This document shows positions 47,536 through 49,259 of a stretch of DNA of 64,000 nt, in pieces. This stretch comes from Kordia sp. (GTDB lineage: Bacteria; Bacteroidota; Bacteroidia; Flavobacteriales; Flavobacteriaceae). Below the pieces are notes generated by a model. That model searched no databases and was not told the DNA's origin. It worked only from the letters and a program-made list of their open reading frames with translations. A program made the translations under genes and the position numbers. The DNA lies in NCBI RefSeq assembly GCF_022447245.1, contig NZ_JAKVBC010000003.1, positions 212,733-276,732 of the forward strand, written 5' to 3'. Position 1 is the stretch's first letter. Each line of letters opens with the position of its first letter.

Positions 47536-47805
47536 ATTATAAAGAAAAGCAGATTTAGTGAAGCTCAAATAATAGCTATGCTTCAACAGTACGAATCAGG
47601 AATTAAAGTAACCGATATCTGTAGAGAAAAAGGAATTACTACAGCCACTTTTTACAGTTGGAAGCGCAAATATGAAGGTATGGATGCCCACCAACTCAAA
47701 GAATTAAAGTCATTCCAAGAGGAAAATCGTCGTTTAAAGCAGATGTATGCGGATTTAAGCTTAGATCACCGTATTTTAAAGGATATCATTGAAAAAAAGC
47801 TCTAG
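47536..47805 (+). pseudogene. IS3 OrfA (helix-turn-helix transposase subunit)
   Basis: Encodes the IS3 OrfA N-terminus K-K-S-R-F-S-E-A-Q-I-I-A-M-L, a helix-turn-helix (V-T-D-I-C-R-E-K-G-I-T-T-A-T-F-Y-S-W-K-R-K-Y) and a leucine-zipper-like end. The expected start before K-K-S-R-F is ATA at 47539 rather than ATG; ATT at 47536 or the internal ATG at 47578 could be used. The A7 run at 47792-47798 is the usual -1 slip site into OrfB. Confidence 0.7.
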
Positions 47806-48568
47806 CGCCTTGTGAACGAAAAGAATTGGCTCAAACGATTATAACTGAATAAGATCTGAGTATTAAAAGATCCTGTGCGCTAGTGTGTCTGAGTCGTTCC
47901 ATGTGGTATTACAATACTACAAGAGATGATAGCCAAGTAATAGAAAAACTTTTAGAAATAAATGAGTTAAAACCAAATCGAGGGATTGACTATTACTATC
48001 ATCGTATTGGTAAACAAGGCTATTTATGGAATCGTAAACGTGTATTACGAGTATATAGATTAATGGGATTATATCTTAATAGAAAAAGGAAAAAGAAACG
48101 CCTTCCTGCACGAGTAAAAACACCATTAGAGCAACCAGAAGCTCCATGCCAAGTATGGAGTGCTGATTTTATGAGTGATAGCCTAGTTACAGGGCGTTCC
48201 TTTAGAGTATTTAATATGATAGATGATTATAACAGACAGGCATGTGTACTGAGGCAAATTTTTCAATGCCAGCCATCAGGGTTGTATCTTATATAAAACA
48301 AGCGATTGAAGTTTATGGTAAACCACTAGAAATACGAGTAGATAATGGACCAGAATTTTTATCAAATCTGTTTGTTAATTTTTGTGATACAGAAGGAATA
48401 TCTATCAACTATACAGCACCAGGAGAACCGACTCAGAATGGATATGTAGAGCGATTTAATAAAACCTTTAGAGAAGATTATAATGAATATCATCCGCATA
48501 AATCATTAGGAAGAAAAAGCCCTAATGAAGTTTTAAGAGAATTTACAAAGGGACCAGCCCCTTTGTAA
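47799..48568 (+). pseudogene. IS3 OrfB (DDE transposase), three lesions
   Basis: An rve-type integrase core is present: V-W-S-A-D-F (first Asp), R-V-D-N-G-P-E-F (second Asp), Y-V-E-R-F-N-K-T-F (Glu). Lesions: TAA at 47850; a one-base deletion near 48242 (R-Q-A/C-T-E-A-N-F); and loss of about 20 codons between F-R-E-D and Y-N-E-Y-H-P-H near 48477, probably by recombination between short repeats. The element cannot move by itself. Confidence 0.85.
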
Positions 48569-48712
48569 TCTATTTTGTTTAATTTAGAACTTTCCGAAAA
48601 AGGGTAAGTCTTCAAAATGCTATAAAAAATACCTTAACTGCGCTCGATGTGATACTATTTTGTATCAATCTCCAAACCCTTATAAATACTGGGCTTAGAG
48701 ACAGCTAAAAAA

Positions 48713-48808
48713 CATCTTGATAAAAAATATTTTTATCTTGATAAGTTGCAAAAAACATCAAGACAAAAAAAAATTCTATCTTGATAAAATCTGCACTTTA
48801 TCTTGAAA
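48713..48808 (+). repeat. Five-copy phased repeat array, about 21.5-bp period
   Basis: Copies of a 10-bp near-palindrome start at 48713 (CATCTTGATA), 48734 (TATCTTGATA), 48756 (CATCAAGACA), 48777 (TATCTTGATA) and 48799 (TATCTTGAAA). The steps are 21, 22, 21 and 22 bp, two turns of B-DNA. Runs of A lie between them, so the DNA may be curved. It is intergenic, between the IS remnant and the HU-like gene. No open frame crosses it. A stacked protein-binding site, or a curved-DNA site, is the likely role. Confidence 0.75.
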
Positions 48809-48863: not shown

Positions 48864-49259
48864 TTACATAGAAGACTCTCCTACTTTTTCAAAGTTTAGG
48901 GTTTTTAACATCTTTTTTAAGTTGCTGCTTGGTCTAAAGATTATTTTACTTTTATCAATAGTAGCACCTGTTACCTCAACAGCAGTTTCTTTTCCTTCAC
49001 CCGATACGTTTACGGCAAAACTTCCTAAATCGCCTAAACGCACCATATTTCCCAATTCTAATTGTCGCTTCGCAACATCTACCAATCCAATTAAAACTGC
49101 ATATACATCATTACGGCGTACGGTAGAACCATCGCCAACCAAATCGGCTAGTTTATCTAAGTCCAATATACTTCCTGTTACTGAGCTTGGATAATACTTT
49201 TGTGGCGCAGCCAAATCCCTTGGATTTCTGCGCGGAATAACTTTGAATTTAATAGCCAT
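48864..49259 (-). CDS. HU-HIG type DNA-binding protein
   Basis: 131 residues; A-I-K-F-K-V-I-P-R-R-N-P-R-D-L-A-A-P-Q-K-Y-Y-P and S-T-V-R-R-N-D-V-Y-A-V-L-I-G-L identify the Bacteroidetes HU-like (HU-HIG) family; N-M-V-R-L-G-D-L-G-S-F-A-V-N-V is the beta-arm region. These proteins bend DNA. The phased repeat array is directly downstream of this gene, which makes a self-binding link worth testing but does not prove it. Confidence 0.9.
   Translation of the reverse strand: MAIKFKVIPRRNPRDLAAPQKYYPSSVTGSILDLDKLADLVGDGSTVRRNDVYAVLIGLVDVAKRQLELGNMVRLGDLGSFAVNVSGEGKETAVEVTGATIDKSKIIFRPSSNLKKMLKTLNFEKVGESSM

Follow-up and report, generated by a model that had tools for sequence, protein, structure and literature searches.

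A phased five-box array beside an HU-HIG gene in Kordia: a candidate docking site for the neighbouring protein

The window, as the whole stretch of 64,000 nucleotides analysed here is called, belongs to contig 23 (C23) of a 5.24-Mb Kordia genome (G000). Five short boxes lie there between remnants of a transposase and the 3′ end of a gene for an HU-type protein, as follows.

48713..48722, plus strand: box 1, CATCTTGATA
48734..48743, plus strand: box 2, TATCTTGATA, step 21
48756..48765, plus strand: box 3, CATCAAGACA, step 22
48777..48786, plus strand: box 4, TATCTTGATA, step 21
48799..48808, plus strand: box 5, TATCTTGAAA, step 22, one mismatch against the consensus YATCWWGAYA
48708..48792, plus strand: 85-bp core (box-13-box-14-box-13-box) common to other Kordia arrays, a row of the profile R1 (L024, 6441-6525)
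48674..48709, plus strand: outer flank, AAACCCTTATAAATACTGGGCTTAGAGACAGCTAAA, related by eye to the flanks of several other Kordia arrays
48864..49259, minus strand: HU-HIG gene (PF18291), 131 aa, 3′ end towards the array
47578..48568, plus strand: IS3-like transposase pieces, split over several frames, on the array's other side

An earlier note on this DNA had placed five repeats at 48713, 48734, 48756, 48777 and 48799, with steps of 21, 22, 21 and 22 bp, and all are present in the sequence. The unit it proposed, YATCWWGAYA, is exact in copies 1-4 and departs by one base in copy 5 (TATCTTGAAA, 48799), and an exact-pattern scan recovers the first four boxes only. A box by itself is nothing unusual, with 8 strand-matches in the window where 3.5 are expected; the spacing is the rare part, and the claim that such regular steps are unlikely by chance is borne out by a two-box pattern with 6 matches in the 5.24-Mb genome, every one inside an array of this type, against 0 in the reversed control. 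The boxes are near-palindromes of the form ATC-AA/TT-GAY, separated in Kordia by alternating spacers of 13 bp (AAAAAAATATTTT-like) and 14 bp (AAGTTGNNCAAAAC-like). The AA and TT orientations are mixed in Kordia arrays, which would fit a site read as a dyad; the window order is TT, TT, AA, TT, TT, and the four listed boxes of the array on contig C41 are all AA. A CRISPR or head-to-tail tandem repeat was ruled out on the grounds of the 8-10 bp boxes, the use of both orientations and the alternating 13/14-bp AT-rich spacers. The outer flank (CCCTTGTAAACACTAGRCTTTGAGAAGYCTAAAA-like) is conserved at window positions 48674-48709 and at L069, L070, L074, L007 and L072; in L072 this flank is found on both sides of the array. 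Within it lies a short hairpin with stem positions that, judged by eye, seem to covary.

Between the last box and the stop of the HU gene there are 55 bp. Its product matches the Pfam family HU-HIG (PF18291) over residues 1-125 with E 4.5e-29 and 101.5 bits (gathering threshold 26.2), and also resembles the related model TIGR01201 (HU_rel), at 66.9 bits just under the cut-off of 68.6. HU-HIG was reportedly named in a 2017 analysis by Burroughs and colleagues. The closest named relatives of the protein are from Kordia (83% and 79%), and its predicted structure is of low confidence (pLDDT 60.5, pTM 0.38). The IS3-like pieces are likely not part of the system, since none was seen beside the same-address array in two further Kordia genomes (G397, G403).

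Other arrays in the genome, for which the earlier note had proposed a search, do exist: G000 has four (the window, C28:52257, C41:31384 and C56:123719). A three-box pattern gives 8 matches against 0 in the control, and a looser pattern 19 strand-matches against 1, of which only three fall outside arrays (C22:58201; C23:245296, both strands). Pattern searches were combined with R1, a sequence-only profile built from 13 arrays, for which the search is circular, and scored on 150 first-look candidates per genome. Together they recover 15 strong arrays, each with E 5e-12 or better, in 7 of 11 Kordia genomes (G000 four, G403 three, G397, G179 and G402 two each, G398 and G401 one each) as well as a weak array in G404 (E 3e-6); G353, G399 and G400 have no R1 match better than E 0.012 among the 11 genomes searched. 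As far as this comparison goes, the grounds for refutation named in the same note fail: relatives have the array, further copies occur, and positions are conserved. The 15 strong and one weak arrays occupy seven addresses, whose gene names are those suggested by the translations.

3′ of HU-HIG: G000, G397, G403
3′ of or near a VKOR/C39-like gene: five genomes
3′ of yidC: three genomes
between lgt and secDF: two genomes
3′ of msrA
two singletons

An HU gene stands at just one of the seven addresses, and HU adjacency was rejected as a rule within Kordia. The 85-bp core is better conserved than its surroundings: at three shared addresses (12 pairs) its identity is 67-89% against 47-75% for the flanks, and between addresses (33 pairs) the mean is 72% against 50-51%. 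At address 3 the array aligns and the flanks align poorly. A core, spacers included, that is common across addresses fits copying plus constraint.

Several weaker or similar elements were met. L137 (G404) and L138 (G401) resemble by eye dispersed pieces of a composite element associated with HU-HIG clade C (see below), and L136 (G353) falls within a long open reading frame. Composites of ATCAAG-like boxes and a TTTAATACGTATTAAAAAT-type 22-bp array make up L137, L138, L134, L196 and the clade C promoters (L190-L196), and some of them have no HU-HIG gene beside them. Small open reading frames starting MKKK.LKSLKLNKKSI, which we take to resemble leader peptides of ribosomally made peptides, occur near arrays L070 and L138. 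Near-perfect 21-bp tandem repeats with ATCTTGAT or ATCATGAC are found in two other genera (L025-L045; G252:C3, G375:C42, G375:C151); the three-box matches in G252 and G375 were rejected as arrays, being perfect or near-perfect 21-bp tandem repeats by eye.

The earlier note had listed a partition-like site and an iteron set among possible roles, and the chromosomal positions lend support to neither. Three exact parS sites are clustered in 11/11 Kordia genomes. The parS consensus (TGTTYCACGTGRAACA, one mismatch allowed) is absent at the array, being found in G000 on C67 only, with the window on C23. In the complete genomes G398, G353 and G400, the distance between the parS cluster and the neighbour genes of five of the seven addresses is ~0.65 to 2.7 Mb, which does not support a single origin or terminus cluster; these distances map addresses, not arrays, since of the three genomes only G398 has a strong array. 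A terminus (matS-like) site, suggested by the mid-contig array of G398, was dropped after the parS and address mapping, which covered all addresses but those of HU-HIG and L076. As for iterons, the arrays are scattered, and that of G398 lies on its one and only contig, of 5.5 Mb. On that contig, a gene at G398:C1 2828-4256, presumably dnaA, lies 3.4 Mb from the parS cluster (3441567-3444582) in one direction and ~2.1 Mb in the other, and the coding bias of G398 over 20 sampled stretches points weakly to an origin closer to 2.1-3.4 Mb.

Kordia HU-HIG proteins fall into three clades: A (79-100% identity with the window protein; G000, G397, G403), B (48-50%; G398, G179, G401, G402, G397) and C (37-41%; eight genomes). 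In G353 the clade B gene (L188; G353:C1:1006423-1006802) is split into two frames, and this genome is without a strong array. Intact clade A or B genes are found in 7 of 11 genomes, all seven of which hold a strong array. The other four (one split, three with none) hold nothing below 1e-6, the weak array of G404 being at 3e-6. Such a split would arise by chance 1 time in 330 with G404 counted as lacking an array, or 4 in 165 with G404 as positive, by a hand calculation uncorrected for phylogeny. The correspondence is imperfect, as G179, G398, G401 and G402 carry the window array type without clade A; clade B was found in these, with or without C, and the clade B genes of G401/G402 have their own, different boxes (by eye).

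Flanks of HU-HIG genes outside Kordia were taken from named genomes and phylum samples, so that these loci were chosen by HU-HIG itself, and the 24 loci used are not independent, including five orthologues of one genus and three from one genome. When 8-mer matches, direct or inverted, were summed over the 300 bp 3′ of these 24 genes, the lag profile peaked at 22 (246) and 44 (135) over a background mostly of 5-40, whereas the 5′ flanks of the same genes gave only 8 at lag 22. For single loci, a flank was counted when its strongest lag was 21 or 22 with a count of at least 4, a criterion fixed after seeing arrays, reading many flanks and trying a first per-locus statistic. That statistic, based on summed counts, was replaced by the peak-lag criterion; it had passed 3/40 loci (L186 by way of a 5′ tandem repeat, the heptamer CAACACC upstream of the clade B HU-HIG gene of G402), and its controls were swamped by short tandem repeats. 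By the peak criterion 16/24 of the non-Kordia 3′ flanks pass, against 3/199 and 0/56 3′ flanks and 9/199 and 2/56 5′ flanks of other genes. The control with shorter HU-type genes, at 4/38 flanks, exceeds the other 3′ controls, three of the four coming from similar sequences. Among 16 genes picked by protein match, two of them from G000, 12 pass in either flank. The misses comprise L202 and L203, which peak at 23, as well as L206, L208, L211, L213, L254 and L255; L211 and L254 fail yet show exact 22-bp steps by eye. L219 stood outside the lag profile and peak criterion, and was included in the array/protein comparison below.

Within Kordia, clade A passes in 3/3 (3′ flanks), clade C in 6/8 on the 5′ side, with ATACSTAT-like boxes in 22-bp steps, and clade B in 2/5, one passer (L184) being without a clear array by eye. 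A chain score sets many loci only slightly apart from their 40 resampled nulls (38 for the window, where the null maximum is 36), and L181, L182 and several more do not exceed the null maximum. No array was seen in the flanks examined at L255, nor at three Bacteroidales/Treponema HU-HIG genes, nor at the plasmid HU-HIG genes L290, L291 and L294 (12 records, five regions, L292 and L293 being left out), and no HU-HIG relative was confirmed on viral contigs.

The non-Kordia arrays of Bacteroidota share the geometry of the window array with other box letters, and usually lie just past the stop codon of the HU-HIG gene. Examples, each array having near-misses as well, are ATCCGCAT/ATGCGGAT five times at exactly 22 bp in ih4, ATAAGCAT/ATGCGCAT six times in Prolixibacter, CCTGCGCA/CCTAAGCA five times in L204, TGCGCAGG five times in L209, ATTAGCAT/ATAAGCAT four times in G412 and CGTGTGTT three times in L207. 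Even paralogues of one genome differ by eye: ATGCKCAT (four times) and TTCAC..GTGAA in G463, and TGCGCA and CACC-N3-GGTG (three times) in G441. Kordia clades A and C likewise have different boxes, and the kmers common to some A/C pairs come from ATCAAG-like boxes, which are present in clade C promoters too. The second HU-HIG type of G463 and G441 keeps a TTCACC-like box in the three genomes read by eye (L219, L253, L254), L219 being from a third genome. Boxes close to those of Kordia (GTCTTGAC, GTCAAGAC; one 22-bp step, by eye) accompany a protein of G538 that shares 49% identity with that of the window. Over 780 pairs (40/41 loci), array and protein similarity correlate with Spearman 0.16 and Mantel r 0.50 (0/2000 permutations as high), mainly among close relatives; of the three TTCACC-type pairs, two have high array similarity and one 0.14. 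Second arrays with no HU-HIG gene within 10 kb around were found in G412, between convergent genes, and in Prolixibacter, 3′ of a minus-strand gene. In the other six genomes covered by this search, made with one pattern, there were only isolated pairs away from HU-HIG, in several near the level of the reversed control.

The geometry of the arrays, their adjacency to HU-HIG genes, their conservation and their dispersal are observed directly. From sequence comparison we lean towards the reading that the window array serves the HU-HIG protein encoded beside it as a private docking site, with predicted anchor or bridging sites on the chromosome. The protein likely docks at these boxes, since gene-plus-array pairs with other letters recur in Bacteroidota. 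Each near-palindromic box would bind one HU-HIG dimer, and successive dimers, two turns apart, would stack along a single helix face into a compact nucleoprotein block; each HU-HIG protein may recognise its own box letters, and at the scattered copies the same protein may anchor or bridge the chromosome. Of the roles suggested in the earlier note, stacked protein binding tied to the neighbouring HU gene is supported as a prediction, also beyond the window, HU-HIG arrays being found in many Bacteroidota; bending as its key is not. By a wedge model, 17% of the 105-bp stretches tested across the 64 kb are predicted to be more curved than the array, as are 27% of 419 similarly AT-rich ones; nine other Kordia cores give curvature values of 0.71-0.94, measured over 85 rather than 105 bp and so not directly comparable. 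A-tract bending is, on this model, neither needed nor special at the window array.

A different account would make the arrays a dispersed repeat, like a MITE or REP, that spreads between gene ends, its proximity to HU-HIG being hitch-hiking. The nearest published element found is BrickBuilt, a MITE of Porphyromonas gingivalis with head-to-tail repeats (1 to 22.8 copies), a leader, a tail and terminal inverted repeats (PMC4596501). It is a 23-nt tandem repeat with 19 intergenic copies, one beside a PF00216 gene, and so shares with the Kordia arrays a step of about two turns, an intergenic setting, several copies per genome and a host among the Bacteroidota, but it differs from their 2-5 near-palindromic boxes and variable spacers (PMC4596501). 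The scattered intergenic copies in Kordia do share spacers and outer flanks, and the second copy in G412 includes DNA matching the stretch from the HU-HIG stop to the array; such copying with flanks counts against a private docking site in that it fits a mobile repeat too. However, array-bearing Kordia genomes hold only 1-4 copies, and the array core is kept while the flanks diverge. Several copies have outer flanks that resemble one another, L072 alone having them on both sides, and two alignments gave no clean empty site; on a reading of the copies, no terminal inverted repeats were noticed on most of them, nor any target duplication. The HU-HIG link recurs in many genera with unrelated box letters, which hitch-hiking by a single repeat fails to explain. 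We regard a mobile repeat as rather unlikely.

Another reading is an autoregulatory operator, at which HU-HIG would bind the array and control its own or the next gene, and the clade C boxes, at ~90-200 bp upstream of the ATG, would suit one. In clade A and outside Kordia, however, the gene has its array on the 3′ side, and in 9 of 25 loci (the 25 including two of Kordia clade B; first-box positions set by hand) it stands behind a hairpin resembling an intrinsic terminator. Among the 16 arrays in Kordia, eight have convergent and six codirectional reading frames (at least 70 aa) around them, L072 and L073 being not fully assignable; as at least one gene ends towards each array, these two included, none is flanked by divergent genes. 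We give an operator little credence. Equally improbable is a docking site for another trans-acting protein (a regulator, partition or recombination factor), for which the persistence of arrays in Kordia genomes without a clade A gene might speak, but no neighbour gene is common to different Kordia addresses when neighbours within ~4.5 kb are clustered (blastp, E 1e-8), and the common neighbour outside Kordia is HU-HIG itself, although those loci were selected by it. Lastly, an element acting as RNA, or a series of transcription terminators in tandem, is very unlikely, and a structured RNA was rejected, since among seven sequences folded the mixed-orientation arrays are more stable than their shuffles (z -5.4 for the minus and -3.6 for the plus strand of the window; L075 -3.5; L008 -3.2) but single-orientation arrays are not (L023 -0.3; Prolixibacter -0.7), with only -2.2 for the G412 array, and the 13 array loci have no Rfam match at the gathering threshold (the window sub-threshold matches only), nor has the window array a terminator-like site.

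The private docking site for HU-HIG can be set beside known systems. In ParB-parS, TubR-tubC centromere-like sites and plasmid iterons, the gene of a DNA-binding protein stands beside a cluster of phased boxes, and in matS/MatP scattered palindromic sites serve an organising protein of the terminus. Unlike the first three, no ATPase partner or replication gene was seen next to the array, and the protein belongs to the HU superfamily; canonical parS, moreover, sits elsewhere in 11/11 Kordia genomes. Unlike matS/MatP, Kordia has arrays and not single sites, and those addresses that were mapped are spread beyond any one region. A literature search at the level of titles and listings found no description of DNA arrays linked to HU-HIG.

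HU-family proteins are usually viewed as nearly sequence-blind architectural proteins, and we know of no clear reason why Bacteroidota hold so many HU paralogues. Speculatively, HU-HIG genes may be portable, self-marking modules of chromosome organisation, each coding for a sequence-specific HU-family protein, in which an adjacent private array with a two-turn step evolves in its box letters with the protein and copies are seeded elsewhere as anchors, so that parallel, centromere-like addressing systems would operate in Bacteroidota without cross-talk. The rule of an HU-HIG gene with its own phased array predicts private specificity, would give each orphan paralogue a ready candidate binding substrate, and points to a layer of chromosome addressing.
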